The position numbers and the translations under genes are program-made. 64,000 bases of DNA from Siphonodentalium dalli (taxonomy: Eukaryota > Mollusca > Scaphopoda > Gadilida > Siphonodentaliidae): assembly GCA_032622095.1 (NCBI GenBank), contig CP136061.1, positions 234,048,944-234,112,943 on the forward strand. The letters are read 5' to 3'. This document shows positions 4,153 through 63,935 of the stretch, piece after piece; position 1 is the first letter of the stretch; every line of letters begins with the position of its first letter. The notes beneath the pieces were generated by a model. It was given only the letters and a program-made list of their open reading frames with translations. It ran no database searches and had not been told where the DNA came from.

Positions 4153-6012
4153 CTTAACCGGTATCCAGTATTCACTTCGATCCTCTGTTAACTGGTATCC
4201 AGTATTCACGTCGATCCTCTGTTAACTGGTATCCAGTATTCACTTCGATCCTCTGTTAACTGGTATCCACTATTCACGTCGATCCTCTGTTAACTGGTAT
4301 CCAGTATTCACGTCGATCCTCTGTTAACTGGTATCCAGTATTCACTTCAATCCTGTGTTAACTGGTATCCAGTATTCACGTCGATCCTCTGTTAACTGGT
4401 ATCCAGTATTCACGTCGATCCTCTGTTAACTGGTATCCAGTATTCACTTCGATCATCTGTTAACTGGTATTCAGTATTCACTTCAATCCTGTGTTAACTG
4501 GTATCCAGTATTCACGTCGATCCTCTGTTAACTGGTATCCAGTATTCACGTCGATCCTCTGTTAACTGGTATCCAGTATTCACTTCGATCCTCTGTTAAC
4601 TGGTATCCAGTATTCACGTCGATCCTCTGTTAACTGGTATTCAGTATTCACTTCAATCCTGTGTTAACTGTTATTCAGTATTCACTTCGATCCTCTGTTA
4701 ACTGGTATCCAGTATTCACGTCGATCCTCTGTTAACTGGTATTCAGTATTCACGTCGATCCTCTGTTAACTGGTATTCAGTATTCACTTCAATCCTGTGT
4801 TAACTGTTATTCAGTATTCACGTCGATCTTCTGTTAACTGGTATTCAGTATTCACTTCAATCCTGTGTTAACTGTTATTCAGTATTCACGTCGATCTTCT
4901 GTTAACTGGTATTCAGTATTCACTTCGATCTTCTGTTAACTGATATTCAGTACGCACCTGGACTCTGTTAACTGGTATTCACTTCGATCCTCTGTTAACT
5001 GGTATTCAGTATTCACCTGGACTCTCTGTTAGCTGGTTTTCAGTATTCACTTGGATCCCCTCTGTTAACTGGTATTCAGTATTCACTTCAATCCTCTGTT
5101 AACTGTTATTCAGTATTCACTTCGGTCTTCTGTTAACTGATATTCAGTACGCACCTGGACTCTGTTAACTGTATTCACTTCGATCCTCTGTTAACTGGTA
5201 TTCAGTAATCACTTCGACCCTCTGTTAATTGGTATTCAGTATGCACCTGGACTTTCAGTATTCGCCTCAATTCTCTGTTAACTGGTTTTCAGTATTCGCC
5301 TAAATTCTCTGTTAACTGGTGTTCAGTATTCGCCTCAATTCTCTGTTAACTGCATGGTATTCAATATTCACTTCGATCCTCCGTTAACTGGTATTCAGTA
5401 TTCACCTGGGTTCTCTGTTAACTGGTATTCAGTATTCACCTGGATTCGCTGTTAACTGGTATTCAGTGTTCACTTCGATCCTCTGTTAACTGGTATCCAG
5501 AATTCACGTCGATCCTCTGTTAACTGGTATTCAGTATTCACCTGGATTCTCTGTTAACTGGTATTCAGTATTCACGTCGATCTTCTGTTAACTGATATTC
5601 AGTACGCACCTGGACTCTGTTAACTGGTATTCACCTGGATTCTCTGTTAACTGGTATTCAGTATTCACCTGGATTATCTGTTAACTGGTATTCAGTATTC
5701 ACCTGGATTATCTGTTAACTGGTTTTCAGTATTCACCTGGATTATCTGTTAACTGGTTTTCAGTATTCACTTGGATTATCTCTTAACTGGTTTTCAGTAT
5801 TCACATGGATTATCTCTTAACTGGTATATATTCAGTATTCACCTGGACTCTCTGTTAACTGGTATTCAGTATTCGCCTCAATCCTCTGTTAGCTGGTTTT
5901 CAGTATTCGCCTCAATTCTCTGTTAACTGCATGGTATTCAATATTCACATCGATTCTCTAGTAACTGTATGGTATTCAGTATTCACCTCGATTCTCTGTT
6001 AACTGGTATTCA
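4153..6012. repeat. 34-bp satellite array
   Basis: More than fifty tandem copies of a unit close to GTTAACTGGTATCCAGTATT followed by CACTTCGATCCTCT. The left half (to about 4930) is homogeneous and alternates a few subtypes (cacttcg, cacgtcg, cttcaat); the right half is more diverged, with units of uneven length and cctgga-type variants. Each intact unit carries GTTAAC. Confidence 0.97.
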
Positions 6013-14070: not shown

Positions 14071-15198
14071 TCGACTATTCTAGGTTAAATTGTTTGAAAA
14101 CTCATAAGCTGAAGCATTATGTCAATAGCGATGCATTAGTTAATCCTTTTTATACTAAATGCTCATTGATAGTTATCCCTTAGGAAATGTTCATGTAATA
14201 AGTTTAACAAACAACCTTCAACTGAATTGGAAAATCCATTCACTATAGAAAGTTTGAGCACTAGTTTTTAATTGATATTTTTAACTTGTTTTCTTAATGA
14301 CAAGCCACTGTTGTAAAAATTATATACGATATGAGAAGCAAGCATATTACACTTCAATAAATAATTAATATAAAATTTTCTTATTTACTTTCTACCCTTC
14401 TGCTCTCATCAACAACATAACCGATTTTTGGAGTCTGGAATTTTGATTAAGAGGAATGTTGATCGCATTGTTTGCATGCGCCTCATGGGTCGTTAAATCA
14501 TGTAATAACGTTTTCATGCAGGCGTTAGACCAAACTACATACAGTGTTTATCTGCGCTTAATGCCTTGTAAAATACCGCTGTCACCGGGAACATTTTACC
14601 CACCTGTGGTGGACTTCCGATAATAGTCATATATACAGCGCTACAAATTGCTCATATTCAGCCTACAAAATATCAAATAAAATATGTATCATTTTATACA
14701 TTAAGTTTGAAAAACGCTGACAGAATCTGCAATATTTCACATAATCCGGTTTCCTGGTAAATTTGTAAACACGAACCCAATTGAAACTTCTTCACTCATG
14801 CAAAGATGTTCAATCTGTTATTATTTATGAGCAGGCGATGTTTATCATCGGAGCATTCTGACTTGTACTTCTGACCTCCTACATAAAGAGTAGATGTCAT
14901 GAATTGTTTTATCAAATTACCAAATCAGACGAAACATTCCACTTTCAACATATTTTGAGGAGTTGTCAATATGTGGTTTCAGCCATGTTGCAGGGAAAAT
15001 ATAGAATGTAAAACTATTCAATATAATGGTACCAAGCCGATTACAGAGTCAGAAAGATAGTATGACTGGTGCACTCTGGTAGAGATTGGCGTTAGGCGAC
15101 TTATTAGAAATTATCGACGCACACATATCTGTACAAAAATGGAGACACACGGAGAACTGTTTATAAAATTCAAACAATCACAACAGGTTAACAAAAAG
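14071..15198. other. Probable IBTK 3' flank or 3' UTR
   Basis: No coding signal on either strand. It lies directly downstream of the IBTK stop and minisatellite; the transcript end cannot be placed from sequence alone. Confidence 0.4.
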
Positions 15199-15670
15199 GG
15201 AGTGGCCAGAGCCTGATAACGACTCATGATGTTGGTCTGTCTGCTGTTGACCTTCCAGAGGGGAGTGGCCATTGATAACACCGACTCATGACGTTGGTCT
15301 GTCAGTTGACCTTCCAGAGGGGTGTGGCCATCACCTGATAATGCGGACTCATTATAGGTTGGTCTGTCTATTGACCTTCCCCAGAGGGGTGTAGCCATCA
15401 ACTGATAATGACGACTCATGATAAGTTGGTCTGCCTGTTGACCTTCCAGAGGGGTGTGGCCATCACCTGATAACACCGCTCATGATAAGTTGGTTTGTCT
15501 GTTGACCTTCCAGAGGGGTGTGGCCATCACCTGATAATGCCGACTCATTATAGGTTGGTCTGTCTGTTGACCTTCCCCAGAGGGGTGTAGCCATCACCTG
15601 ATAATGACGACTCATGATAAGTTGGTCTGCCTGTTGACCTTCCAGAGGGGTGGGGCCATCACCTGATAAC
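15199..15670. repeat. ~60-bp minisatellite over the IBTK stop codon and 3' UTR
   Basis: Seven copies of a 58-67 bp unit, marked by the core TTGACCTTCCAGAGGGGTG, plus a degenerate edge copy. Units fall into alternating subtypes that recur as a triplet of about 190 bp. Read on the minus strand, most units encode a version of VMATPLWKVNRQTN, the end of IBTK. Long open frames on the minus strand here are a consequence of the repeat, not separate genes. Confidence 0.95.
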
Positions 15671-15752
15671 ATCGCTCTACAGTGATTCTTTCACCTGGCC
15701 TCTCATCTACACCATATGCTACGAGTAACTCATGCATCGCCTGCTCTTCAAT
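15612..15752 (-). CDS. IBTK: IBTK last coding exon, running into a minisatellite
   Basis: 141 bp from acceptor ctcttgtag|ATT to TGA. It encodes 46 residues: IEEQAMHELLVAYGVDERPG, then ERITVERCYQVMAPPLWKVN, then RQTNLS. The ITVER motif and the AxPxW motif fit the end of vertebrate IBTK. The last 20 or so codons fall inside the first unit of the tandem array at 15199-15670. Downstream copies repeat the same coding sequence after the stop. I saw no clear polyadenylation signal. Confidence 0.93.
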   Translation of the reverse strand: MEEQAMHELLVAYGVDERPGERITVERCYQVMAPPLWKVNRQTNLS

Positions 15753-18700: not shown

Positions 18701-21700
18701 AGGTCTACTGTGGCTTCGCATGTAGAGGGTGACGTTACGATATAAAAAATATGTGCTTGTATATAGTACATTGTAGGATTCTACCCCATCTGATGTGGGG
18801 GGGGGGGGGGGGGGGGGGGGGTGCGCCGACAAGTCAATGGTGGAATTTCATCATACCATACCATAGCCAAAATACAACGGTTTTGTGGTTCAGTTTGTGT
18901 ATAGCTTCCATCGCAATAGCAAAGCAAGGTGGAAAACTAACTTGCAGGGTTACTTACTGTGCAAAGGTCAATATCCAACTTCCTGCTTTTATCAAAATAT
19001 TTCAACACATTTGACCAATAAACTTGGGGTTTTGGACAGCCTGTGGTGACAATATACCTGATAGTTATCATTGCCTATGCTCTTTTGTTGAATACCCACA
19101 CATACACCATTGTATTTAGCTCATATTCGATATCTGAAACATAACTAATTTCCGTTTGACAGTTTCCTATTTTTGTGTTTCCAGTTTTCAACTACGGTGA
19201 AAATTTTAAATCCAATAAAATGGTCCAACGACTGAGAATCAAACCTTTTTTTTTTTGGCCGAACATGAAGAAGTTTTATATAAAAGCCTGGTTAAGTTTG
19301 ACAACTTCGCACTACAAATGCCTTTAGCTATAGATATTAATGCTCAAGAGCAGCATGTGATATTTCTGCACAAATGACTGGGTATTTGCTGTTAAATAAG
19401 TAAAAATTTAATAAGTGAGTTTGCTGATAACAATGATCTATCTGTCAGCAGAACATCAAATAACTTCTGATCAAACATCATTACAATTTTGATTATTATT
19501 TTTCAAAGGTTTCAGATCAAAATAACCAATGCAATTACTTGGATTTGATCAACTAAAATTCATTTTTGTTTCTTTCTGGAGAATGTTTTCCAGATTTTGA
19601 GAGAAAAATTAAACTAAAGAGCCTCTTCCCTCATCTCAAAATTGAGACCTAATTGCCTGAGAAGACAGATATTTTATTTTAATAGCCTTAGATCAGAGGA
19701 AAACCACATTGGTCAATCAAGTAGGCCACTTCAAATTATATTGAGGATGATAGCCTTGACAAAAGGCTTATAATCAGGTTTGTACAGTTAGTAACCCTTC
19801 AAATACTGAGTGGATATTCCCATTCAGTTATGAAATTATACATTGAAACTTAATTCTTTAGTCGTGGGGATATTCAGATAATATAAGCAGATGACAGGCA
19901 AAGAAACACTCTCTATAGCAAAGTTCAAAACTTATTTGATGAACATCCTTACAAATGATTCATTGGGAATCAAGTAACAACTCGTCAAAAAGTATTGAGT
20001 TATCAAAAGGTTAAAGTTTTAACTCAGAAATCTTCTATATACTAGAAGTTACAGGGCAATTAATTTTCATACATGATGTCAATGTCTTGCACAATATTAA
20101 TCTCGCTGAGGCAATTCAGCCAATGGTTCATCACCATCGGTATGGTAACAAATTGAATTTAATAGCTAATTTTTGCATCTTTAGAATGTTCAAAAAATAT
20201 CACATGCAGGTTTTGGAACTATTGTGTTTTTTAATTGGTAGAAAATGATTTAATTATATATCTCTTTATTGGTGCCAAAATATATAAGAATCCATACCAC
20301 ACCCCCCTACCGTCCCCCAGTTAGTACATCTCCATTCTCGTTGGTAAATCAAGTAGGCAATCATGATAATATAAACTATAGGAGATTTTGTAACATCATG
20401 AGATTAGAACAGTACCTGTATGAGTCCCAGTGGTTTCTTGGAGGCTTTGTGTTGACTGTCTATCCTCCGTTTCTCATCATGCATTATATCACTGAAGCTA
20501 ATGGATGACTGCTGGGGTGATGTCGCTGTTGCTATGCTCCAGGGATTCTCTATGGATGACTGCAACACGGGCTGGATTTCTACTGGCTGACTAGACTGAG
20601 GTTTCCTACCAATCGGAGAGGGTAATCCCCAGCTGAAAGGGAGTGATTTTTTGTTTTCAGACCATATAATCACAATGATTATACATAACAATTTAGTGCC
20701 ACATATGGCTTCTTATTACAACACTGTTCCTGAAAAACTACTGTTCCGTTGTCTTCGATGGCATCCGATTCCACACATATTTGTGGAATCGGATGCCGTC
20801 AATGTCACACAACGTATATGCAAATGACGTTTGCGTCGACCATGAATGACCGTGTTATCGCAGAAGGATAAAACTCAAGGCTAATTCTTTCCTTCTGCTT
20901 TGGAACTCATGATGTATTGACAAACCCTTTAACATACACGTGTCATTTTGTGTAATTATTCACTGCTTATTATCTCTATAAATCTATAAAGCCAGTTCGA
21001 TCAAAGTTACATTTATTATGCTGATTAGCTTTATTGAGTCAACATAGATTTATTTAAGTTACTACAGTCAATTTCAGTTAATAACATATCATTTAACTGC
21101 AGGGCATATACTAATAGACAGTTCTGATAATCACTACTTATGTAGAATCCTGCGGCTGATGAAATAGAAAGTCTATGACAAGTAATCAGACCCACTATTT
21201 ATATGTGGGTCGGTAGTTAACTTAGATTGAACCCAGACCTGCTCAATTCATTACATAAGGCCATTCAACAAAGATTCCTTGTTTCTCATCAGCACCCATC
21301 CAGATTTTATCACCTGTCTCTAATTGTTTTGTATTTTACAAATGGTCTATATCGCACATACGCAAAGATAAAATATCGTTCAAGCGGTAACTAAAATGCT
21401 GGGGTGTAACAATATGTGGTTTTGGTGTTTATCGCGATATGTAGATAGATCACGATGTACATGTAATGCGTGCATATGCAATTTTTATTACAGAAGATAT
21501 ACCTATACCCGTTGGCGGGTATTTTTACAATAGAATATACTGGTATAGCAACTAAAAGTGGTAAGCATACTTCGCTGTCAGAGAAATAAACATTGAAGTT
21601 GGAACTGTGTAAACCTGATTTAAGTATGCACTGAAACTGATTCTACCACGCAAAAAATGGATAATGTCTTTTGTGAGGAGTCCTATTCTTATATCAAACA

Positions 21701-39700: not shown

Positions 39701-42700
39701 TTAGTTCTTTGTTGATTTGAATAATGTTAAGTGAAGCTTCAAGGAGTGTCTCTTTTTGTCTTTATGCGTGTGGCTCCTGTGTGCAGATATTAGTTCGTTG
39801 GATGCTAACTTGTTGACTAAGAGGTATAAGTCGTTCAGTCAAGCAGCGGTTTAGAAATTCTACGCGTTGTTCCGCTTTGATGATTTTAATTCGGACATTT
39901 CTCGTGGCCTTGTATAAAGGAATTTTGTCTAAGGGGATATTGATTTTCACGTGTGGAGGTTTTTCATGTTTTTTGGTGGGATGTGACAGGACACGCCGTT
40001 TGGCGTTCCTATTATCCATATTCAAGTTTGGTTCACCTGTGTCGGAATGTCTGACTTCTGTGTCTGTGGTGAGCCATAAATCGCTGGATGATGATGCGGG
40101 TGAAATTTGTGTAGTCATATAGTAAAATAGTTAAAGTTTAACAAGGGAAGCCTAACTGTCTTAGTATAGCGTTTGTCGAGTTAAGTTCTCGTAAGTTGCT
40201 TGTTAAGTGTGATAACTTAGGTAATAAATTTACTAATTCAATGTATTGAAGTTCAATGTATTGGCTAAATATACCTAAACATGAATAAAGGATAATCAAT
40301 CAAGTAATAATAAGTCTATGTAACACAGTTTTTGTAGAATATACCTTGTATATACAGTACGCATATATATAAAACAAAATAGATTCAAATTAACCTTAAA
40401 TAATGTTTAGTTTGGGCAGAAATGTGAAAAATACTGTTATTTGCCACCACAATTACCTCTGAAATACCATTCAATTTGCCTGAATACTGCCTGAATTTGA
40501 CCAAAATTATCTCCAATTTACCCGATAATTGCCAGAATTTTTAGTTTTTCTCAGCCCACCCAGCCCCACTGGCCCAAACGGCTATATTTGGAATTGTTAC
40601 ACAGTGAGATAAAACATTTTGACCAAATTTGCCAAAAAACTTCTGTGGCCAATTTTGAAAAAATATCACTGGAAATTTTACCTGGCAACAGGAAATATCT
40701 CTCGGATCTCACCTTCGATATACGGCGAATCGTCAGTGTACAAATAATCAATCAAAATTTCCAATATATTAGCAGGGATAGATAACGTCAACTGGGATGA
40801 CATCGATGTCTAAAAAAAAAGAAACGGAACAAATCGAAAAAAGAAAAGAAAAGAAATGCATTTTTCAAAAGCACATAAATTCTCATGAATTTGAAGTTTG
40901 GTTGATAATAAAATTTCAGTAATGATGAATCAATCTGGGATATTAAATCCTACTTCATGTATAAATTGTGAAAGATTTACCTTTCGATAAGCAAGATAAC
41001 CTTTTCTATACTAAATGGATTCTTCCACTCAGTTGTAAAAGTAGACATTGGAATGGTCTATTATTCATCTGGTGGGGTTTTCAGGAAAAATACACACACA
41101 GTCATTTGTTGAACTAATTATCTGAACATTTCTTATGGGAACTACTCTTCAATGAGTTTTTAGCATATCAATATTAGTTGCATAAAAAGATGAATGAAAG
41201 TGCATTATACCTCAATCCATCCTGTTGCCAACATACTATGGAAGTATTCAAGTCTGGATACCAGTATGCATTTATGGCACTCAACCAGCTTATCATCCTC
41301 CGATTTTATACAAACATCATAGAACTCTGGTCTGCAAACAAAATTAAAATCTCAGCATTGGTTTTTGGGACTTAATCTTGTTTTAACTGTTAGGTCCTAT
41401 CATGACATTGTCAGTCTTTATTACCCACCCAGCGGTTTAACCCTTTACCCAACAAACCGGCCAAATAAAGCTTCAACAGCCTAAAATATCTTCGGTCTGT
41501 CTCAATAGAACCATACAAATATGGCTATCATTGGAACCGGCTCCTTGACCACATTGTGATAGTTAGTTATGCCCTGTGCCAATGCATTCTCTTATATATG
41601 CGAGTCGACCATAGGTCGCCTCGCATATATAAGAGAATGCATTGGCCTAAAAAAAATATTTTTTTAACACTTTTTACCATTTTTTCTTACATTCTTTAAC
41701 AATTTTATAATTTTTAATGTGTTAAGCCAATGCATTCTCTTATATATGCGAGGCGACCGATGGTCGACTCGCATATATAAGAGAATGCATTGGCACAGGG
41801 CCCTTCTGTTGGGTAAAGGGTTAAATTCATCAGGTCATTACTCAACTGCACAGTGCATTCTCTTATATATGTGAGGCTTCCTATGGGAGACTCGCATATA
41901 GAAGAGAATGCACTGGCACATGATCTTTAATGCTGCACAAGCGCAGCTCCCATCAGGAAAGGGTTAATTATTATCATGCATGTTCCACATTAATTTGTGG
42001 CTTTTTGCAATGAAATCATTCAAGCATTCAAAACTAGAAGTATGCAACCCAGATAAAAATTATAATCTTTAATAAACTTTGTAACTTTCTGTCATGGAAA
42101 TGATAGATTGCTTACTTGGATGAATGGCTACCTACACATACAAGTTTTAACCCTTTCATGACAGGAACTGCGATGGTGCAGCATTAAAGATCATGCGCCA
42201 ATGCATTCTCTTTTATTTGCGAGTTTCCCATAGGGAGCCTCGCATATATAAGAGATTACATTGGCCTAACAATATTTACCTTGACCTTGTAAGCCAGTGC
42301 ATTCTCTTATATATGCGAGGCTCCCTATAGCAGAATCGCATGTGGAAGAGAATGCACTGGCACATGATCTTTAATGCTGCACCAGCGTGTCTCCCGTCAT
42401 GAAAGTGTTAAATGTTATCATGCATGTTCCACATTAATTTGTGGCTTTTCACATTAAACTCATTCAAACCTAGAAGTACGCAACCCAGATAAAAATAAAC
42501 ATCCATGTACAAAATCTATTCGCGTCTCCAATGTTGCCAGAGAAAGCTTGCAACTCACAATTTCCGCCTGTCAAATTTTATCTTTGTCGGATTCAAAGAT
42601 TTCCCATATGATTGTATCACTCCGTTCACCCACTTGACAGCATCCAGTCTGAAATTCAGAAAATGATGTTCATATAATTGAAGAAATTCACAGAAGGATA

Positions 42701-45700
42701 TTATTATAAATTTCATTCATAGCATAAAAGATAACTGCATCAATTCCTTGTTTTGAAAGCATACTCTAAGCTGCCTAATAATTGAGATGGCCTAATAAAA
42801 GTGATAGGTGAGGATTTAGGTTAAAATTAATAATAGTCAATGTCTCAATGCTAAATAATAGCGACCGTTGGGAATTTTCTCCAAAATTAATAATCATGCT
42901 GACACTATTATTAGGCACCAACAGGCCTGGCATTCTGAGGCGAGTGATAAAATCGCTCGCCTACCGCCCGCCTGAAAATAATCCAGGCGGACGAAATAAC
43001 GCCCTCCAAAATGGCAAAACATCGCTCTCCAGGACCCGGGTGTAAGTAATGATCTATGTACTAACAAGGTCGGCAACGAAGTGTTAAACGATGTCGGTAT
43101 GGGACCTTTGATCTATAAGCCGCATTCCGACTGTCCCTGGCGAAATGTACAAGCGATATTGATTACGTTGTAGCAACATTTCCACCGGAAGCACGTGCCT
43201 CTGTGAAATAGACACACCGTTCAGAGTTATGTCACTTTGAAGTATTGCGTCATGCCTCCCACGCAACTGGACAGTGCTATATAATGTCAGGCATCATTGA
43301 GGCATTGTTAGAACTTGTTATTTTGTGTAATGAAAACAACAAACTCAGCAATTATTGTAATAGTTTAATACTGACATGTACTTTATTTTTATCAATACTG
43401 TACATGTGGAGTGGAATATTTACTATGTCTGATTTTGGCAAACATTTTCGCCCTCCTGTGCTCGGCACAAATAATAGCCCTCCTAGACCTTTTCAGGAGG
43501 GCGATTTTTAGCTCTCCTAGATTTCTGAGAATGCCAGGCCTGCACCAATATCAAATTAAAAAGCAGCCGTTTCATTCGTATCGTCTACTGTATCGAAAAA
43601 ACAGAAATATGCCAGTTGTAAAAGGACTTATGACCATGACCTATGTAAAATTTCTTATCTAAACATTCCCTTAAACTAAATTCAAGGATATTCATTTTCA
43701 GCATTTGTATCATCCAAACACCCCTCCAAATAAATAATGGACCATTCCAATATATACTTTTATAAAGTAAAGTAGTCTAGTGATTATAAAATTGTTGTAA
43801 CTATTAAACAAGTTAAATAAGATGGAAGATCGTCAAGAAAAAAACTTTAAGAGCAAATTTAGAAAACTGATGTACTATTGAGGCAATTTTGTGATCATTG
43901 GAAGAAGAAACTGGCTAAAACTACAATCAGTTGCAGGGAAAACATAACAAACAACATATAAAATTTACCATCATTTATTGTACTTTAGGTGCTGATTATA
44001 CAGACATTTCGTGCAAAACAGATTAAACTTCGCTAGAGAGGCGGATGTGACTTTAAAATTACCTGCCTGGATGCATGGTAAAATAAATTCTTGGATTTCC
44101 CCAGCGATAGTGGGAGTTCTAAAATTAGGAAGCAGACTATCGTGTTGAGGACGAAACTAACACTTTCATGACTGGAGCTTCCTGAAATTTTGCAAAAATC
44201 CTGTGCCAATGTCATAACAATATATACCTAGACCTTGTAAGCCAGTGCATTCACTTATATATGCAAGGCTCCCTAGGTGAGACTGGCATATATAAGATAA
44301 TGCACTGGCACAGAATAGTTAATGCTGCACCAGCGCAGCTCCCATCATGAAAGGGTTAAAGAGGCAATAGTGAATGTCAAGCAGCCAATCACAAGCATGG
44401 ATAGGGCTTAGAAAGTTAAGAGAGATTAAAAATTACACTCACTTTTTAACAAGTGTCTTGATTCCGAGCTTCCTTGCAAGTTCTTGTAAAGCTTTCACAG
44501 GATTCTTTCCTCCCGAGTTCTCTTTGCTGTCTTTCTTTTTTCCTTTGTTTTCTTTCTTTTTCTCTTCAATAACAGCAAAGGCTGACATTCTATTATCAAT
44601 AATAACATCATCTGCAATCACTAGATCTTTTGGAGGAAAAATGCTATTGCTAGAAACCACATAGTCAATTTTCTCACCATTTTTCATAAAGTCACAAGCG
44701 CCTGTGTAGAGATATTTGAGAAGTTGAGTAAACAGTTGAGGATCAACATCATTTAGTAGCACTATCGGGGTCTCTCCTTCGGGACAATCCTTAACTGCCT
44801 CAGACACGAGCTTGCGTAGAGTGTCACTTCTACTGCATACAATTAACCTGTGAGCAGGCCACGTCTTCCTTTCAGTCTGAGAAAAAAAATAAAAAAAATA
44901 AAAGTATCAAACGTTGTTGCTCTAACCAGGGGGACTACCTGAATGAATCAGCACTGAAGCAAATGAGGTAATCACAAGGGTAGCTTATATGTAAGCCAAT
45001 ATCATGTTGTAGGTGCCGTTTTTATCTGTTTTAGTACACCGTGGTTGTATATAAACTTTTATGTATCATGATACTTGCGCGCATCCTGCTTTGTTATTTC
45101 AGCCTTTTATGGGTTAACTTAAATGTGTGTCAGTGTGCATACTCGTAAGAGCGAACATGAACGATAGTATCACCTGCACTCTGATTAGCACTCACCTGTT
45201 ACTGGCGGGAAAATTAGCATGATTGGCGTCATTCATTAATTAGTTTTTGAAATAGTCAAACACAGTTATTCGATTACAAATTTTAAATATATAATGAAAT
45301 GCAGATTTCATTTTAAGGACTATCTTTAATGGTTTTAATATTGGCTGCTGTGATGATTATGTTGATGCCTTTATGATTTTAAATACACTTTATTAACCCA
45401 ATTTCATTTGTGTGTTGGACTTACTATCTACGTTAAATCCAGCCGTATAACAATCAGAAGTGTAGCATGGTGGGAAATCTCAATCCATTCCAACAACTGT
45501 GAATGTCTAGTATTAGTAAATCAGCCCGTATCAGCAACTTCTGATTGTCCATGGTAATATAAGGACAAAAAGTCAAGCAATCGTAATTGTGGTTTTATTT
45601 TTAACAAACTGAGTTAAGGGTAAGTAATGTAAGATAAAACAAATTTATGTTTTGTTTCAAGGGCCCCGCCTCATTGTTTTCTTTGGTAAAGCATAAAATT

Positions 45701-60700: not shown

Positions 60701-63700
60701 AATCCAAAAGTGTAGATAGCATCAGAGCTGGACAGTACAGTGTGGAATCTCCCACAACACACTCCTTTTAGATGTTTGCCTTTCAACAGTTTGTGTATAA
60801 CCTGCAGGGTAGAGGGGTATAACGATTAATACATGATACTTTCTGAGGAATCATATTGCAATATGTTTTAACAGATGTCTAATGCGAATTGTGATACCCA
60901 TATCGTAACGTGAGCAAAAATTGCAATGTGTATCGTATCCCAGCAGGGGTGTATCATTACAGCCCTCGAGGGAGAGTAGTTCCCTTTGGAAATATTGAGA
61001 TAATAAGTTGAACAAATGGCCGCAGAATTAAATTTGTGTTGTCCAAATCCCATGACAACATTGAAGCCATCACTCATTTCTTATATAAAACAATACTACT
61101 GCACATAAAAACCATGGACCCTTGGTTAACAACTGACAATCTTGCCCAAATACAACAGGAATCAAGTGACCCCCTTTTTGTTGAACATCAATCTGTAATT
61201 ATCATGAATTTACCAAGCTTTAACATCATTAGACAGCTTATGCTCGTCCTAGGGCTGTAACGATACACCTGGTCATGATACGATATAAATCACAATACAT
61301 GATACATTACATATCCTGATACACTAATTCGATACAATATATATCATGATATATGAAATAATTAGTGTTCTCAAATGATTTACCACCTGATTTATCAGAA
61401 TCAACATGTTTATAACTAAAGATAGAGTTCGTTTTTTTTTTACTAAAATGGAGTGTAATAGTTATCCAGCCGAGTCTAATAGACATGTAATCTTGAGAGG
61501 CAATTGCAGGTTTTGTTCTTTTACACATGAAAATCTTCAGAAATTATTTGAGTTCCTCTATATGAAACACATGAAATGATACGTGAAAGTGTATCACGAT
61601 ATATTGAATTCATGATGAATAGTTACAGGTATAGTGGGTCTAATGTGCTAAGTATCCTTATGACTGGGACACAAGCCTGCAAAAAGCGTGTCTGTCATTT
61701 GCAGAATGAGGTCCCCAGAGGATGAATTTGGTGGCGCGATCCCGCACGGTGGGCTAGCATCACCAAATTACCCTCTGGCAGGCTTTCCGCCAGGTTTTGG
61801 GGAACAGGTCCTGTATCCGCCGAGGGGAAAATGCAGTCAATGTTTTCAATGTCATGGAAACACTAGTGGACCTACTTTTGTTGTATCGGCCAATAGAAGA
61901 ATCAGAGAGTAGATTTGCTGATAGTTTTGCATCCATTTTCTACCCAAGTTACTATCCCATCAACCGCAATAAATTTAAAACCTAGAAAATTTATTAGATC
62001 AAAATTAATTGCCAGGTTAAGATCACCGGTGGTGAAGGCCTTGTGTTATTCCCAGTATACGGAAACGCGGCCATTGAAGTTAAATGACTTACTATTCAAG
62101 CAATGAAGGAATAGAATAAAGGCGCAATGTGTTAGTTCTAAATACCAAGCTAAATAATAATAAACATAGATAAGATGCTTTGAAAATGAAAGTGTCAATG
62201 ACACTGTAGCTCAACTTAGGTAGGGGAATAATTTAATGGTTGACAGTAAATGGAGGAATAGGAAAGGTGCTAATTGAAATGTCTAAGTAAGACTAGATGT
62301 ACATGTCCATGTCAATATCAACATTCATGACAGGTTTCATAATGATTGGATCAGGGATGTGGTGATTATGGTGTGCCAAAGGATTTATTGATGCAAAGAG
62401 TAAATTCTAAAATGGACATCGGCAGCCATGTTTTTTTCCAAATTACCCCAAAATGACCTGTTCCCATCTACAGACTTTACAAATCTCATAATGATCTGAT
62501 CAAAGGTACGACCTGTAGCCCGCGCCAAAGGATTTAGTCATGCAAAGAGTAAAATCCAATATGGCTGCTGGCGGCCATGTTTTTTGGCCGAACGACCCCA
62601 AAATGACTTGTTCCCATCTACGTGTCAATATTAACATCCATGACAAATTTCATGATGATCAGACGAACAGTACGACCTGTAGCCCGCGCCAATGGATTGA
62701 ATTTTGAAATCGAAGATGGCCACCAGCGGCCATGTTTTTTGGCCGAATGACCACAAAATGACTCGTACCCATCTACATGTCAATGTCAACATTCATGACA
62801 AATTTCATAAAGATCAGACCAAAGGTACGACCTGTAGCCCGCGCCAAAGGAAATTGTTGACGGACACACGCACACACACATGCACACACGGACGACGGAC
62901 GCCAAACCATGGCAATAGCTCAAACTTACAAAGTAAGTTGAGCTAAAAATGGAGTGATATATATATTTTACGACATGAGGATAGAATCAGTGGGTATGAT
63001 TAAATTATCGGCGGTCATTTTTCGTAACCTAACTGCAGCAACGTAACCAGCAGACGACAAAGCATGTGTTCTAGCGATGTTTGGTTTGATCACTTCCTCA
63101 GTTCATCTACCCCCGGTAACTGTGTCTGCAGGTTGGAGCTAGCGTGCAACGTGCAGAGCCGGGTGTACTCGTTTTAAAATCCGGAGCATTTCAGTAAAAA
63201 CTAAATAAAGTGTACTCTATATTCTAAATGGAACACATCGACCCTGCACGTTGAATGTTAGCTCCGGCCTACAGACCTACTGACATCCAACTTTTAGTGT
63301 TAGAGTGGTCCTAGTGTGTATTCTCGCTAGAAATCAAATAAAGTTGTCAACTATTTAAATTTCTTAGTACTGTCCCAACAAAATTGAGAAGTAAACATCT
63401 TTATACCTTTATACATATGGAATATGTCCTGTTGTATGACAGAAGGGGAAAAATTGGCTGGGGGAATGGGACCCTTAAAGGGACCCCCTGCCCTACTAGC
63501 GGAAAGGTTGCCTCTGGGAACCTTATTCTGCTTAGGCCTGTTATTTTGAGACTATTTATAATTCCCAGAAGATGAGACCAAAACAGAATGAAGTCTCCAG
63601 AGGCCAGAGGGTGAATTTGGTGATGCTTTCCTGCTGTTTAGGATAGCATCACTAAATTCACTCTCTGGGGACCTCATTTTGCAAATGACAGGCACACTAT

Positions 63701-63809
63701 TTGCAGACTTGCTGGGACACCTACCTGTTTGGGTACCAAACTCTTCTCCGGAACTGGGAACTGTCCTAACTGATGACATGTATTCAATCCACAAGAGTAG
63801 ACTGAGCCA
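15612..63809 (-). CDS. IBTK: IBTK (inhibitor of Bruton tyrosine kinase) orthologue, 20 exons, 5' part outside window
   Basis: Twenty exons on the minus strand join with consistent phases and GT-AG introns into one frame of about 1,061 residues ending in TGA. Domain order (numbering from the first complete codon here): RCC1-type repeats 1-130 (motifs YSCGLNTCHQLG and YTFGLNAGQLG), linker 130-300, BTB1 about 305-460 with a Lys/Glu-rich insert, BTB2 about 495-600 (HKCILVSRLEYFHSML), BACK-like helices 600-640, a basic and Ser-rich segment 660-940 (KKVKQKKRRSHHK) and a conserved tail 940-1061 (SFSDIM, IEEQAMHELL). In vertebrates IBTK binds BTK and acts as a CUL3 substrate adaptor; a CUL3 adaptor role is the safer inference for an invertebrate. 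Vertebrate IBTK is about 1,350 residues, so roughly the first 250-300 (ankyrin repeats, first RCC1 repeats) should lie to the right. The family call rests on remembered domain order and motifs, not a search. No frameshift or internal stop was seen. Confidence 0.95.
15753..16510. other. Last IBTK intron, proximal part, with repeat fragments
   Basis: Contains a family-C fragment at about 15940-15995 (ATCATTCTGCAAATGACAGA) and the phrase GGGGATTGCCCATCATAAAT, which resembles GGGGGTTGCCCGTCACAAAA near 35530. Nothing coding. Confidence 0.5.
16511..17939. mobile_element. 1.43-kb TTAA-flanked element with internal minisatellite
   Basis: Ends CTCTTTCGTTGCCA (left) and TGGCAGCGAAAGAG (right) match as inverted repeats at 13 of 14 positions; TTAA flanks both sides (16507-16510 and 17940-17943), the piggyBac target signature. 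Inside lie a 145-bp tandem repeat (16831-17187) and three copies of an AAGATGG...TCACGTGAC phrase (near 17330, 17548 and 17722). No transposase is visible, so it is non-autonomous. Confidence 0.75.
16831..17187. repeat. 145-bp minisatellite, about 2.5 copies
   Basis: CTCTATACTCTAATGATCGA recurs at about 16831, 16977 and 17121. A shorter sub-unit, GGGCGCCTGCGGCGCATAAG, recurs within units. The repeat keeps a 156-codon frame open (16767-17237) by chance of composition; I do not call it a gene. Confidence 0.9.
18232..18478 (+). mobile_element. tRNA-derived SINE
   Basis: The A-box-like TGGCCGAGTGG (18241-18251) is followed by a degenerate B-box-like GGATCGATAATCC (18294-18306). This arrangement looks like a tRNA-Ser/Leu-type head. 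The body GGATGGAGACGTAAATGGCT and GCACGATAAAGAACCCTACT resembles conserved central domains of metazoan SINEs. The family name is not certain. It is not a functional tRNA gene, as no cloverleaf 3' acceptor is present. Confidence 0.75.
18797..18821. repeat. Poly-G run of 25
   Basis: An uninterrupted run of 25 G. Likely length-unstable and prone to sequencing error; it keeps a short frame open artificially. Confidence 0.95.
18822..20415. other. Last IBTK intron, AT-rich part
   Basis: No gene. Positions 19790-19905 belong to a repeat family (ggatattcccattcagttat...gatattcagataatataagc) also seen at 38783-38880, 40995-41100, 51850-51955 and, inverted, 43680-43770. Confidence 0.5.
20416..20632 (-). 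CDS. IBTK: IBTK penultimate exon: SFSDIM motif
   Basis: 217 bp, acceptor tttcag|C, donor ATACAG|GTACTG. It encodes SWGLPSPIGRK, ENPWSIATATSPQQSSISFS and KKPLGLIQ. The SFSDI(M/V) and KPLxLIQ motifs are the strongest C-terminal markers of the family. Confidence 0.95.
20760..20797. repeat. Perfect 38-bp palindrome
   Basis: 16-bp arms, GGCATCCGATTCCACA and its exact complement, around a 6-base loop, in an IBTK intron 127 bp upstream of an exon. Confidence 0.9.
21258..22167. mobile_element. Element bounded by 35-bp inverted repeats
   Basis: AGGCCATTCAACAAAGATTC at the left and its near-exact complement GAATCTCTGTTGAATGGCCT at the right, with arms extending to 35 bp each. A target duplication is unclear. 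The poly-A tract near 22087 lies inside. No frame. Confidence 0.6.
21764..22209. repeat. Source copy of a 446-bp duplicated intron segment
   Basis: Nearly identical to 29881-30329. The few differences include the poly-A tract, which is uninterrupted here. It ends 29 bp short of the exon at 22238. Confidence 0.9.
22238..22393 (-). CDS. IBTK: IBTK exon: disordered region with SFREVMLDE motif
   Basis: 156 bp, acceptor tttcag|G, donor ATGAG|GTTTGT. It encodes VTKSFREVMLDEISS and SAPKQITPALKSPSV. The intron sequence starting 29 bp beyond the donor end was copied to 29881-30329. Confidence 0.9.
22583..22917. mobile_element. Family-A TTAA element, copy A1 (inverted)
   Basis: Ends CCCTTTACCCAACA and TGTTGGGTAAAGGG; flanks TTAA left and TTAt right. 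Contains two palindromes built on CTCTTATATATGCGAG and its complement, and a GGCCGGTTTTGGCCGG end segment. About 190 bp from the exon at 22393. Confidence 0.88.
22922..23011. mobile_element. Family-B TTAA element, left-end fragment
   Basis: Begins CCCTTTCATGATGGGAGCTG directly after the TTAt that ends copy A1, so the two share a target site. Truncated within the palindrome. Confidence 0.75.
23165..23320 (-). CDS. IBTK: IBTK exon: disordered region with KFSWKD motif
   Basis: 156 bp, acceptor tttcag|T, donor CCATG|GTATGT. It encodes SGKFSWKDVKKQQARKTPVK and SLTDIVENEASVN. Phase matches both neighbours. Confidence 0.9.
24224..24660. mobile_element. 437-bp TTAA-flanked element, third small family
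   Basis: Left AGGTACTCAATCCGATT and the complement of the right end, AGATGCCTAATCCGATT, match at 13 of 17 positions. TTAA flanks both ends (24220-24223 and 24661-24664). The open frame at 24288-24530 has no recognisable product. Its right end lies 22 bp from the exon at 24683. Confidence 0.65.
24683..24927 (-). CDS. IBTK: IBTK exon: disordered region
   Basis: 245 bp, acceptor ttgcag|GAA, donor AAGAG|GTAAAT. It encodes a charged, Ser-rich segment including SDTSSLREIMEQEDSIMKNT, a LREIMxxE short motif. A TTAA-flanked element ends 22 bp beyond the donor side (24224-24660) and a second begins 64 bp before the acceptor side (24992-25382). Confidence 0.9.
24992..25382. mobile_element. Family-A TTAA element, copy A2
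   Basis: 391 bp, CCCTTTACCCAACA to TGTTGGGTAAAGGG, TTAA on both sides. Two internal palindromes flank a T-rich centre. 64 bp upstream of an IBTK exon. Confidence 0.92.
25383..26008. other. Intron segment with GGTACC-rich palindromic motifs
   Basis: Positions 25503-25610 contain overlapping GGTACCGGTACC-type words, like those inside the hAT-like element at 26009 and near 27843. Probably part of a related element whose ends I could not define. Confidence 0.4.
26009..26682. mobile_element. hAT-like element with CCAATCGC target duplication
   Basis: Exact 8-bp flanks CCAATCGC at 26001-26008 and 26683-26690. Ends CAAGGTTACCACGG and (complement of right) CAGGGTTGCCAAAG match at about 10 of 14 positions; both fit the YARNG start typical of hAT. 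The right subterminal region is rich in GGTACCG words. Non-autonomous, 674 bp. Confidence 0.72.
27449..27661. mobile_element. Perfect 213-bp palindrome, Tc1/mariner-like, TA target
   Basis: Two 105-bp arms, complementary at every position as read by eye, with a 3-base GGG loop. Ends CAGTAATGC...GCATTACTG with TA on both sides (27447-27448, 27662-27663). A second copy begins at 63936. Confidence 0.9.
27964..28191. mobile_element. Family-B TTAA element, copy B3
   Basis: Starts CCCTTTCGTGATGGGAGCTG after TTAA and ends ATCAAAGTG before TTAA. It shares with family A the TATATATGCGAG palindrome. 95 bp from the exon at 28287. Confidence 0.85.
28287..28574 (-). CDS. IBTK: IBTK exon: conserved ITP motif and basic low-complexity region
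   Basis: 288 bp, acceptor gaacag|AAT, donor TTGACG|GTAAGG. It starts with NDAMCRRLITPDSDGPSYEY, a conserved IBTK stretch, then turns basic (KKVKQKKRRSHHKSWSED), a plausible nuclear-localisation-like cluster, and ends Ser/Glu rich. A family-B element (27964-28191) lies 95 bp beyond the donor side. Confidence 0.94.
29200..29260 (-). CDS. IBTK: IBTK micro-exon after BACK segment
   Basis: 61 bp, acceptor ttccag|A, donor GAGCAG|GTCAGT. It encodes YLDMVSDEVMADVTTYYREQ. Too short for open-frame detection alone; it is supported by splice sites, phase and the family match. A decayed family-B element starts 48 bp upstream of the acceptor. Confidence 0.92.
29308..29557. mobile_element. Family-B TTAA element, decayed left end
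   Basis: CTCTTTCATGACGGGAGCTG at the left, the paired TATATATGC palindromes, and CATGGAAGGG followed by TTAA at the right. It lies 47 bp upstream of the acceptor of the 61-bp IBTK exon. Confidence 0.8.
29674..29692. repeat. Poly-C run of 19
   Basis: Uninterrupted homopolymer inside an intron. Confidence 0.95.
29843..29880. mobile_element. Family-A left end, 38 bp only (A3)
   Basis: TTAA then CCCTTTACCCAACAAACCGG and a further 18 bp, after which the sequence switches abruptly to the duplicated intron segment. Confidence 0.9.
29881..30329. repeat. Inserted copy of the 446-bp IBTK intron segment
   Basis: Nearly identical to 21764-22209 and in the same orientation. It begins right after the broken A3 end and runs directly into the TTAA that starts complete copy A4. 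Confidence 0.9.
30332..30721. mobile_element. Family-A TTAA element, copy A4
   Basis: 390 bp, complete ends and TTAA flanks (30328-30331, 30722-30725). It ends 17 bp before the IBTK exon at 30739, so the donor GTATGA is at 30738-30733. Confidence 0.92.
30739..30856 (-). CDS. IBTK: IBTK exon: BACK-like helices after BTB2
   Basis: 118 bp, acceptor atatag|TGA, donor GGAAG|GTATGA. It encodes TLKNCGELLEFASTYNAGQL and RQSCLQFVCQNLAAMLEG, a helical pair like the 3-box/BACK segment of CUL3 adaptors. A complete family-A TTAA element ends at 30721, so only about 17 bp of intron separate the exon from mobile DNA. Confidence 0.96.
30857..31763. other. Intron with diverged ~230-bp repeat pair
   Basis: AAGTTTCAATTCTCTA occurs twice (about 31277 and 31474) in a duplicated context containing GGAGGAGTTGATTACA. 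The stretch ends in CCTATAGTCCCCCAAAAATA, similar to the end of the array at 48121-50816. No gene. Confidence 0.5.
31764..35160. mobile_element. Pearl-like element, 3.4 kb, with ~20 tandem 160-bp core repeats
   Basis: Begins ATGAAAGTGTCAATGACACT then GTAGCTCAACTT, and ends AAGTTGAGCTAAAAA after a short CACACA/GACG microsatellite. The core unit contains AAGATGGCTGC(T/C)GGCGGCCA, TGACCCCAAAATGACTCGTT and GGTACGACCTGTAGCCCGTG. Four stretches repeat with a period near 483 bp (three units). Structure (inverted ends, tandem core, microsatellite) matches pearl/HINE-type elements described in bivalves. Frames of 77 codons recur only because the unit recurs. Confidence 0.8.
35161..36043. other. Intron with older repeat beginning near 35527
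   Basis: ACTAGGGGGTTGCCCGTCAC marks a repeat boundary; similar wording occurs near 15815. The A5 element interrupts this repeat at TTAA 36040-36043. No coding content. Confidence 0.45.
36044..36435. mobile_element. Family-A TTAA element, copy A5 (inverted)
   Basis: 392 bp, complete, TTAA at both sides, reverse orientation relative to A2 and A4. Confidence 0.92.
36436..37357. other. Intron with retroelement-like tail
   Basis: ACAGACAGACAACGGGTTTT followed by (TATA)-type microsatellite near 37080-37130, then CAAAACCCCTGGACCAATTT, phrases seen at ends of invertebrate non-autonomous elements. Family not assigned. Confidence 0.4.
37358..38462. mobile_element. hAT-like element with exact ATTTGTTT target duplication
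   Basis: 1,105 bp. Flanks ATTTGTTT at 37350-37357 and 38463-38470. Left end TAGGGTTGCCACGA; the complement of the right end, TAGGCTTGCCACGA, matches at 13 of 14. TAGGG fits the hAT YARNG rule. Subterminal TCGACTAATCGA-type motifs occur on both sides. No transposase frame. Confidence 0.85.
38463..38645. other. Right part of the repeat interrupted by the hAT-like element
   Basis: Contains GGGGCCACAGGCCCC, then AGGCTCATGAAGAAAGCCT, then GTTTCAGCTAGT near 38617. A hairpin followed by CTAG before T resembles a Helitron 3' end; this is only suggestive. Confidence 0.3.
38646..38747 (-). CDS. IBTK: IBTK exon: BTB domain 2, end
   Basis: 102 bp, acceptor ccacag|ACT, donor TTAG|GTGAGT. It encodes NVELLCNILVLSDQLLVTRL followed by KEICEVSVV, the closing BTB helices. 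The next intron is the largest in the gene (about 7.8 kb) and contains the 3.4-kb pearl-like array and a nested hAT-like element. Confidence 0.96.
39060..40118 (-). pseudogene. Decayed transposon-like coding sequence
   Basis: An intact 118-codon frame (40118-39762) with KIIKAEQRVEFLNRCLTERL continues in the same frame past stop codons at about 39760 and 39690 into LLEASLNIIQINKELTQS and EAEEAIDTLLTRLNLELRQR, then basic residues (KRKRSMTPTS), and is later frameshifted. The helical, basic layout resembles N-terminal regions of retroelement polyproteins such as Penelope-like elements, but no reverse-transcriptase motif is present, so the family is a guess. It lies within an IBTK intron on the gene's own strand. 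Confidence 0.4.
40713..40809 (-). CDS. IBTK: IBTK exon: BTB domain 2, middle
   Basis: 97 bp, acceptor tttttag|ACA, donor GAAG|GTGAGA. It encodes TLSIPANILEILIDYLYTDD, the BTB helix-YLYTD motif. Of the three frames only this one stays open and keeps phase with both neighbours. Confidence 0.95.
41211..41331 (-). CDS. IBTK: IBTK exon: BTB domain 2, first half
   Basis: 121 bp, acceptor ttgcag|A, donor GAG|GTATAA. It encodes PEFYDVCIKSEDD and ECHKCILVSRLEYFHSMLAT, a textbook BTB start (DVxIxxxD, HKxxLxxRxxYF). A family-A TTAA element lies 110 bp upstream (41441-41820). Confidence 0.96.
41441..41820. mobile_element. Family-A TTAA element, copy A6
   Basis: 380 bp, complete ends, TTAA at 41437-41440 and 41821-41824. 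It lacks one GGCCAAAACC unit near the left end. 110 bp from the exon at 41331. Confidence 0.92.
41848..41963. mobile_element. Family-B TTAA element, right half (B5)
   Basis: One palindrome (CTCTTATATATGTGAG...) and the end CATCAGGAAAGGG followed by TTAA. Confidence 0.75.
41933..42060. repeat. Direct repeat copy 1 (element end plus flank)
   Basis: GATCTTTAATGCTGCAC through the B5 end into ATCATGCATGTTCCACATTA and AACCCAGATAAAAAT; repeated at about 42366-42495. Confidence 0.8.
42151..42407. mobile_element. Family-B TTAA element, copy B6
   Basis: 257 bp; CCCTTTCATGACAGGAACTG to CGTCATGAAAGTG, TTAA on both sides. 151 bp from the exon at 42559. Confidence 0.88.
42366..42495. repeat. Direct repeat copy 2 (element end plus flank)
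   Basis: Diverged repeat of 41933-42060, covering the right end of B6 and the same non-element flank. Confidence 0.8.
42559..42648 (-). CDS. IBTK: IBTK exon: between BTB1 and BTB2
   Basis: 90 bp, acceptor tttcag|A, donor AAATT|GTGAGT. It encodes LDAVKWVNGVIQSYGK and KIKFDRRKL, leading straight into BTB2. The donor lacks a G at the last exon base but keeps a strong GTGAGT. Confidence 0.93.
42922..43542. mobile_element. hAT-like element, about 620 bp
   Basis: CAGGCCTGGCATTCTGAG at the left; the right end CTGAGAATGCCAGGCCTG is its near-perfect complement. Depending on the exact boundary the flanks are GCACCAAC/GCACCAAT, matching at 7 of 8. CAGGC fits only loosely the hAT end rule, so the assignment is moderate. 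Frames inside it have no recognisable product. Confidence 0.6.
43543..44160. other. Intron with one inverted repeat-family fragment
   Basis: 43680-43770 is the complement of the family at 51850-51955 (ATGGACCATTCCAATATATA). Otherwise AT-rich and empty. Confidence 0.5.
44161..44355. mobile_element. Family-B TTAA element, copy B7
   Basis: CACTTTCATGACTGGAGCTT after CTAA, and CATCATGAAAGGG before TTAA. 195 bp, internally deleted. 87 bp from the BTB1 exon. Confidence 0.82.
44443..44876 (-). CDS. IBTK: IBTK exon: BTB domain 1 with basic insert
   Basis: 434 bp, the longest exon here; acceptor ctcag|ACT, donor AAAAA|GTGAGT. It holds the BTB core (WPAHRLIVCSRSDTLRKL, LFTQLLKYLYTGACDF) and then an insert of about 50 residues rich in Lys and Glu (EEKKKENKGKKKDSKE) before ALQELARKLGIKTLVKK. 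A long insert between BTB1 and BTB2 is usual in IBTK; its composition here probably means a disordered, charged loop. A family-B TTAA element (44161-44355) ends 88 bp beyond the donor side. Confidence 0.96.
44877..46084. other. Intron, no feature recognised
   Basis: AT-rich; no element ends or coding signal seen. Confidence 0.5.
46085..46190 (-). CDS. IBTK: IBTK exon: entry into BTB1
   Basis: 106 bp, acceptor ttttcag|T, donor TTCAAG|GTAATT. It encodes LTDVPTVSASEMDVHLASLL and DLIHDVIFK; the DVxFK strand opens the first BTB fold. Confidence 0.95.
46599..46767 (-). CDS. IBTK: IBTK exon: linker before BTB1
   Basis: 169 bp, acceptor ttttag|GTC, donor GCTAG|GTAAGA. It encodes SISLMDLLLRD, VHRVPHVHRATCLACDKKG and NFAVLQSLPNA. 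The His-Arg-Ala and FAxLQS motifs fit this part of IBTK. A hAT-like element (46903-47780) begins 136 bp upstream. Confidence 0.94.
46903..47780. mobile_element. hAT-like element with exact CTTAAAGG target duplication
   Basis: 878 bp. Flanks CTTAAAGG at 46895-46902 and 47781-47788. Ends TAGTGTTCAAACGA and its exact complement TCGTTTGAACACTA; TAGTG fits YARNG. Subterminal GTCGACTAGTCGA-type words are like those of the element at 37358. The 84-codon frame at 46877-47131 crosses the boundary and is not a gene. Confidence 0.88.
47789..48120. other. Intron, fragment of unnamed repeat
   Basis: Shares AACTTTGTTCTTATGTTAAT-type wording with 13777-13850. No gene. Confidence 0.45.
48121..50816. repeat. 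Diverged ~165-bp tandem array with GGAC microsatellite
   Basis: Units contain AAAGTTATCATCCGGA, GGGGCATAACTCT, AATTCGAACTTGACCTGT and CATACCAAATTTGG. A (GGAC)n/GCCCGCCC stretch lies at about 50500-50570, and the right boundary is TAATAGTCCCCAG. Overlapping frames of 70-137 codons on both strands follow from the repeat and are not genes. Confidence 0.85.
50817..51400. mobile_element. Pearl-like element, right-end fragment
   Basis: About three core units, then CACACGCACACACACACGG, GGCAATAGCTCAAACT and the terminal AAGTTGAGCTAAAAA. The left end is replaced by the preceding array. It lies 41 bp from the IBTK exon at 51442. Confidence 0.8.
51442..51628 (-). CDS. IBTK: IBTK exon: linker, propeller-like
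   Basis: 187 bp, acceptor attcag|GTC, donor AAAG|GTAAAG. It encodes VFLWRASDPTVKRCRF and SITSIALNTTNIGMVTDVGD, the region between the RCC1 repeats and BTB1 in the family. A pearl-like repeat right end (to 51400) sits 42 bp beyond the donor end of the exon. Confidence 0.94.
51850..51955. repeat. Dispersed repeat fragment
   Basis: GGAATGGTCTATTATTCATC followed by TGGAGGGATGTTCAGG; relatives at 19790, 38783, 40995 and (inverted) 43680. Confidence 0.65.
51990..52083. repeat. Foldback of about 94 bp
   Basis: GCGAAATGTTAAGATAATAA and GTTCAACAAATGGCCATA pair with the right arm; loop of about 4 bases. A half copy is seen near 60995-61020. Confidence 0.8.
52333..52456 (-). CDS. IBTK: IBTK exon: linker after RCC1 repeats
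   Basis: 124 bp, acceptor ttcacag|G, donor GGGAAA|GTAAGT. It encodes WLDIKQLEIVGGNLDH and MIMLLNGTGK. The phase on both sides matches its neighbours. The intron before it is about 6 kb and holds tandem and mobile repeats. Confidence 0.93.
52457..55811. other. Largest repeat-poor part of an IBTK intron
   Basis: No gene or element ends recognised. 52556-52660 has repeated TCGCC(C/T) words reminiscent of the hAT-like element at 42922. The frame at 54882-55199 (105 codons) has no recognisable domain. Confidence 0.45.
55812..56900. mobile_element. Pearl-like element remnant, interrupted by a family-A element
   Basis: Left end AGTGTCATTGACACTGTAGT at 55817, then A7 inserted at TTAA 55939-55942, then diverged core units (AAGATGGC, ATGTTTTTCA) at 56395-56850. 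A second left end, AGTGTCAGTGACACTGTAGT, starts at about 56870. Confidence 0.7.
55943..56332. mobile_element. Family-A TTAA element, copy A7
   Basis: 390 bp, complete, TTAA on both sides, nested in a pearl-like remnant. Confidence 0.92.
57050..58142. repeat. Tandem-type repeat with ATACCCCCAC ends and GGAC microsatellite
   Basis: Two to three diverged ~150-bp units with GAAATCGGTTCATATTTGTT and TTATTAAGTCGGACAGAATT. (GGAC)n-like stretch at about 58030-58090. The right end TTCGAAAGTGGGGGTATAAT mirrors CATACCCCCACC at 57113. Similar in design to 48121-50816. Confidence 0.7.
58503..58674 (-). CDS. IBTK: IBTK exon: last RCC1 blade and start of linker
   Basis: 172 bp, acceptor ttcaag|GTC, donor TCCAA|GTAAGT. 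It encodes the stretch with SATVVMTVKGDIYILHEYQC, a further propeller-like blade, ending in KVASK when joined to the next exon. A family-A TTAA element (58840-59231) lies 166 bp upstream in the intron. Confidence 0.94.
58840..59231. mobile_element. Family-A TTAA element, copy A8
   Basis: 392 bp, complete, TTAA at 58836-58839 and 59232-59235. 165 bp from the exon ending at 58674. Confidence 0.92.
59232..60018. other. Intron with a repeat resumed at 60455
   Basis: GGGCAATGGTCAAAACTCCT with about 90 bp after it (59497-59590) resembles 60457-60550. No gene. Confidence 0.5.
60019..60455. mobile_element. Best-preserved copy of double-hairpin family C
   Basis: Terminal CTGCAAATAGCGTGTCTGTC and its complement GACAGACACGCTATTTGCAG enclose two ~90-bp hairpins (60050-60140 and 60340-60430) joined by a ~200-bp linker. 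Similar GGCAATGRTCAA wording flanks both sides, perhaps a target duplication or host repeat. Confidence 0.78.
60684..60801 (-). CDS. IBTK: IBTK exon: RCC1-type repeat
   Basis: 118 bp, acceptor ctgcag|GTT, donor CTTG|GTGAGT. It encodes residues 29-67 including GRFHTVL and YTFGLNAGQLG, both typical RCC1 blade signatures. The final G is completed by GT of the next exon to give Gly, as expected of the GQLG motif. Confidence 0.95.
60802..63489. other. Intron with repeat fragments
   Basis: Includes a family-C half copy (61670-61790), a pearl-like element (62184-62949) and AT-rich filler rich in CGATACA/ATGATAC words near 60880 and 61260-61340. No gene. Confidence 0.5.
62184..62949. mobile_element. 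Short complete pearl-like element
   Basis: AATGAAAGTGTCAATGACAC then GTAGCTCAACTT at the left, about three to four core units, a CACACGCACACACACATGCA microsatellite, and AAGTAAGTTGAGCTAAAAA at the right. About 766 bp, against 3.4 kb for 31764-35160; the difference is core copy number. Confidence 0.8.
63490..63707. mobile_element. Family-C fragment abutting an IBTK exon
   Basis: TGGGAACCTTATTCTGCTTA through a hairpin to TGCAAATGACAGGCACACTA and TTTGCAGACTT. It ends about 17 bp before the exon at 63725, whose donor GT is at 63724-63723. Confidence 0.75.
63725..63809 (-). CDS. IBTK: IBTK exon: RCC1-type repeat
   Basis: 85 bp, first in window in transcript order. Acceptor cag at 63812-63810; donor CAG|GTAGGT. 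The first base completes a codon begun upstream. It encodes residues 1-28 with the RCC1 blade motif YSCGLNTCHQLG followed by a VPKQ turn. A repeat of the GGTCCCCAGAGGGTGAATTT family ends about 17 bp beyond the donor. Confidence 0.93.
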
Positions 63810-63935
63810 CTGAAATTAAACAAGAGTTGACAGTCAACGAACCTGCAGTTAGGAAACTGCAATTCAAATTGCTGGCATCAAGGATGGAGAAATGTTTACA
63901 TGATTACCATTTTAATTACAACTAAATTACACATA

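Follow-up and report, generated by a model that had tools for sequence, protein, structure and literature searches.

The predicted coding end of a gene fitting IBTK forms the first unit of a minisatellite that runs on past the stop codon, as the initial annotation had proposed and as both the edge of the array in TRF (15677) and the alignment of its units confirm. We consider the array most likely to be an ordinary minisatellite lying over the end of IBTK, with a minor chance that it swaps the tail of the protein. The course of events that we favor, at a probability of roughly 0.7, is that the coding end of IBTK was the seed, that unequal exchange expanded it into the 3' UTR as an ordinary local minisatellite, presumably with no function of its own, and that the first unit still encodes the tail. 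All coordinates are positions within the window, the whole 64,000-nt stretch of DNA that was analyzed, in which the gene lies on the minus strand; the features are collected in Table 1.

The identity of the minus-strand gene was assessed from its predicted architecture, which fits IBTK in having RCC1 followed by two BTB domains. The earlier assignment to IBTK is upheld by these domains and by their order, with one RCC1 frame and two BTB frames on the minus strand scoring above the Pfam cut-offs; they are the only three of the 13 frames scanned to pass the curated threshold. Two more frames fell short of it, one resembling BACK (E 0.0022) and the other a second RCC1 frame (E 0.0023). A published description of IBTK-alpha gives the same layout, RCC1 repeats and then two BTB domains (PMC4447969). 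The ankyrin repeats of IBTK may be situated past the end of the window. The predicted last exon, which follows an acceptor-like intron end, translates as IEEQAMHELLVAYGVDERPGERITVERCYQVMAPPLWKVNRQTNLS, and the tail encoded at its end is ERCYQVMAPPLW; the preceding frame, ending in ...GLIQ before the donor-like GTACTG, joins it in phase 0. The full 46-residue exon has a single match in the genome, the IBTK locus itself, and three further matches correspond to later units of the array. The gene model as a whole, this last exon included, is a prediction from the DNA.

Table 1. Positions of the array, its units and the predicted IBTK frames within the window
Feature	Position	Strand	Basis
Minisatellite: seven complete units (62-67 nt each), then part of an eighth	15198..15677	-	TRF, unit alignment, shuffle control
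Unit 1 (U1), 64 nt, codons ERCYQVMAPPLWKVNRQTNLS and the T of the stop	15614..15677	-	Unit alignment, frame reading
First three-unit block U1-U3, 196 nt	15482..15677	-	Unit alignment, block comparison
Second three-unit block U4-U6, 194 nt, entirely past the stop	15288..15481	-	Unit alignment, block comparison
Unit 7 (U7), outside the duplicated block	15226..15287	-	86-94% identity to U1-U6
Unit 8 (U8), partial, diverged; similarity ends ~GCCACTCCC	15198..15225	-	Unit alignment
Predicted last coding exon of IBTK, 46 codons and TGA (15614-15612)	15612..15752	-	Open frame, acceptor-like tttctcttgtag upstream
Open frame with the preceding IBTK exon; start undefined	20407..20712	-	Coding ends ...KASKKPLGLIQ, then donor-like GTACTG
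Start of second BTB domain, open frame	41208..41351	-	Pfam PF00651, E 6e-6, 26.8 bits vs cut-off 20.5
BTB domain frame	44442..44906	-	Pfam PF00651, E 2.5e-10, 41 bits vs cut-off 20.5
RCC1 repeat frame	63677..63877	-	Pfam PF00415, E 2.7e-5, 25.1 bits vs cut-off 21.7

A minisatellite is a run of several highly similar units, each of roughly 10-100 bp, arranged head to tail, and the array is one by its head-to-tail units, its copy number and their similarity. TRF reports it with a period of 196 and a score of 759 at 15219-15677, and with periods of 67 and 132 at 15220-15669; a separate run on a 2.4-kb region scored 741, compared with 41 at most in 200 mononucleotide shuffles. In minus-strand order U1 to U7 measure 64, 67, 65, 64, 67, 63, and 62 nt, which replaces the "~60-bp" unit first described with an aligned length of 62-67 nt, and identity among the seven is 84-97%. 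The sequence ATGAG stands at all seven unit boundaries with a spacing of 62-67 nt; the units were cut at this anchor, and the shared junction is therefore partly built in, but the spacing and the edge at 15677 are not. That edge, the left limit of similarity between units, falls at the start of the GAG codon of V-E-R and is the same in TRF, whereas the right end of U8 similarity, at ~15198, was judged by eye on the alignment. Higher-order structure of the kind that unequal exchange can give is also present, in that U1-U3 recurs as U4-U6, with two differences between U1 and U4, two between U2 and U5, and four together with a 2-nt gap between U3 and U6.

In the course that we favor, the stretch from the GAG codon of V-E-R onward would have undergone tandem duplication in this lineage, and unequal exchange would then have produced a minisatellite occupying the start of the 3' UTR. 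A single later duplication would account for the second copy of the three-unit block, and the first unit would have been kept as the tail of the protein. A coding seed is likely, to judge from the register of U1: the array starts inside the coding exon and in register with the tail, which we count in favor of such a seed. The partial and diverged U8 counts against a simple duplication, and would need either a later deletion or an older history. Vertebrate IBTK carries the motif A-x-P-x-W near its end, and the counterpart of this motif here falls inside unit 1; provided that this vertebrate ending holds, the coding sequence predates the array. The same position argues against the reverse order, in which the minisatellite was in the 3' UTR first and the gene, on losing the end it originally had, read into the first unit and so captured a new tail. 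Such a capture would agree with the abrupt start of inter-unit similarity at a codon inside the exon and with the supply of part of the stop by the array, but on balance we think it unlikely. Relatives of the protein were sought in several collections. The last exon retrieved nothing from the PDB with phmmer up to E 10, and the BTB-containing frame retrieved 22 PDB sequences up to E 10, of which the best was SPOP (0.004) and none was named IBTK. A two-exon query against viral contigs (nine pattern matches) and genome contigs (90) gave no relative, and a literature text search with a piece of the human IBTK C terminus found no paper. As these searches found no ortholog, the direction of growth proposed here follows from the vertebrate ending.

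A transposon-derived or dispersed-satellite array was considered and is not supported, since the unit matched only the IBTK locus when the 2.23-Gb genome was searched by a method that skips very common words and scores the best candidates only. A 15-base pattern from the unit likewise had no match outside the array, and a control pattern had none, in a possibly non-exhaustive scan for which a rough estimate gives about two chance matches each. A unit for which no other locus was found fits a local seed. Interspersed repeats do lie on either side, and neither overlaps the array. One, in the last intron at ~15790-15938, ends ~40 bases before the exon and occurs in at least 39 other places (40 scored of 129 candidates). 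The other begins about 100 bases past the array and runs from ~15097 to 15000, where the query ended, or farther, and it too occurs in at least 39 other places (40 scored of 772 candidates).

We turned to the reading frames of the units and to the stop codon, which straddles the U1/U2 junction, the T of TGA being the last base of U1 and the GA belonging to U2. With U1 taken from the left limit of similarity, it covers 21 codons and that T. All seven junctions read T/GAG. Each unit closes with AT and its neighbor opens with GAG, which after the 64-nt U1 places a TGA in the tail frame, and translation should stop at this first junction whatever the copy number. Modulo three the unit lengths are 1, 1, 2, 1, 1, 0, and 2; six of the seven full units are not multiples of three, and the later units therefore share no single reading frame. 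The motif VMATPLWKVNRQTN is intact in U3 and U4. In U6 a stop follows KVN, and U7 reads KVNSRQTN and is without the V before MATPLW, whereas in U2 and U5 a 2-nt insertion after the W shifts the frame and in U8 the motif breaks off after ATP. Among the later units, then, the full motif is retained by U3 and U4 and parts of it by U6 and U7.

With frames of this kind, the array is predicted not to be a coding VNTR of in-frame translated units such as that of CEL. The CEL VNTR lies in the last exon of human carboxyl ester lipase and is described as made of 33-bp segments encoding 11 amino acids each, in which single-base deletions lead to aberrant C termini (PMC8692231). The two systems are alike in having a tandem array where the gene encodes its C terminus, within which frameshifts give aberrant C termini (PMC8692231). 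They differ in that the IBTK units are 62-67 bp long, only one of the seven lengths is divisible by three, and every unit after the first lies beyond the stop.

The consequences of array changes for the protein were followed by simulating every in-register exchange between different units at every alignment column, using one alignment and an equal chance of a break in each column, the poorly aligned end of U8 included. The protein was unchanged in 1,932 of 1,932 copy gains and in 1,549 of 1,932 copy losses. In the other 383 losses the tail was changed, becoming longer in 177, shorter in 140, and different at equal length in 66, and two A-x-P-x-W motifs were present in 34 of the 1,932. With U8 left out, the tail was changed in 316 of 1,449 losses but in none of the 1,449 gains, and two motifs were again present in 34 losses. 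The tail-changing losses listed all break within U1, as do 483 of the 1,932 losses altogether (7 partners x 69 columns), and most contractions that reach U1 therefore alter the tail. Tails of 74, 84, and 126 exon residues are possible. Copy gains should accordingly alter the length of the 3' UTR only and leave the protein untouched, whereas a contraction with its break inside unit 1 would in most cases replace the tail by the version that another unit encodes.

Point changes at the stop and small insertions or deletions were examined in the same way. Of the nine possible single-base substitutions in the stop, one (TAA) is still a stop, and the other eight let the frame run on to the next TGA, adding six residues and no motif. 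Within the 66 array-coded bases, single-base insertions produce a second motif in 116 of 264 cases, two-base deletions in 30 of 66, and one-base deletions in 0 of 66. The initial annotation had expected that copy-number change or a lost stop would append motifs to the protein; this fails for copy gains and for every substitution of the stop, and survives for the 34 losses and for some frameshifts. Its length-variable C terminus is for the most part not supported, as gains never change the protein, although contractions and some insertions or deletions do alter the tail.

These results bear on the idea that the C terminus varies in length or is swapped among individuals, through contractions or frameshifts that fuse unit 1 to a later unit. 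The frequency of tail changes among breaks in U1, with nearly half of the altered tails lengthened, and the second motifs produced by insertions and deletions are what such variation would need. The neutrality of all gains and the lack of any motif-adding stop substitution speak against it, only one assembled allele was examined, and altered tails might be selected against, given that a pull-down described in PMC4447969 required region 891-1353 of human IBTK-alpha for Pdcd4 binding. We regard variation of this kind as improbable. A more elaborate version would make the array a self-terminating library of tail cassettes, in which the later units are alternative C termini, the stop at the junction renders growth harmless, and individuals come to express different tails through contractions or conversions; we would place this a shade lower again.

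As for the transcript, the gene strand has neither AATAAA nor ATTAAA from the stop as far as 14272. This makes it probable that the array belongs to the 3' UTR, where it would form the start of that region in the IBTK mRNA and presumably be retained in the mature message. A weaker TATAAA is present on the gene strand at 15165. Alternatively, selection might maintain the array as an element of the 3' UTR, such as a structure or a repeated RNA-binding site that tunes IBTK expression. Folded as RNA, 15180-15800 is somewhat more stable than its shuffles (z -1.89; 0 of 20 as stable). Repeats may fold differently from shuffles for trivial reasons, however, and we do not take this modest stability as evidence of function. 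An intron stretch at 15780-15794, which comes close to being the complement of a segment shared by U3, U4, and U6, could be read in the same sense, but the similarity is marginal, the four flank tests having given p 0.016 once and 0.28-0.64 otherwise. Of all the readings weighed here, a selected element receives the least credence from us. The intron stretch itself, AAAGGGGTGTGGTCA on the minus strand just upstream of the last exon, pairs with the unit segment at 13 of 14 bases, and a scan of the window for complementarity gave four matches, namely this stretch and three copies of the one unit segment, which are not independent, against a chance mean of 0.11. A splice-donor-like CAGGTGATGG is present in five of the eight units (U1-U4 and U6; 15288-15677), by which splicing within the array may occur.

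The nearest parallels to a minisatellite at the 3' end of a gene come from a survey of human VNTRs, which reports that, compared with tandem repeats as a whole, they are enriched in 3' UTRs and coding exons (PMC8096271). The IBTK array resembles these human VNTRs in its short unit, its head-to-tail copies, and its place at the 3' end of a gene, and differs in that its first unit encodes protein and contributes the first base of the stop codon, and in being known from one assembly (PMC8096271). Neither an array crossing a stop codon nor a repeat at the end of IBTK is described in the titles and abstract openings of the literature matches listed, and the part of PMC1273636 available contains nothing on an array over a stop codon. 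The arrangement can be put as a junction rule: where the first unit starts on a codon, has a length of 1 mod 3, and meets the next at a T/GA junction, the second copy brings the stop with it. Under this rule an array can gain copies without touching the protein, which makes the IBTK array a clean example of growth over a stop codon. The effect expected on IBTK is one on 3' UTR length, and the rule is easily scanned for in other genomes.

TRF intervals cover 12.3% of the window (20 intervals, merged by hand from 30 rows, with the IBTK array included), and it is thus unsurprising that an array should meet the end of an exon. A large array at 31864-35068 has a 164-bp period, a 482-bp higher-order period, and a TRF score of 4676, and a consensus resembling its own recurs at 62571-62851; another, at 4154-6012, holds ~55 copies of a 34-bp unit by TRF. 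A further element recurs on both strands, for example at 22535-22819, 25235-25414, 29314-29565, and 56017-56352, with frames that read ...CILLYM..., ...RIYKRMHW..., or close variants, and it looks like an interspersed family.
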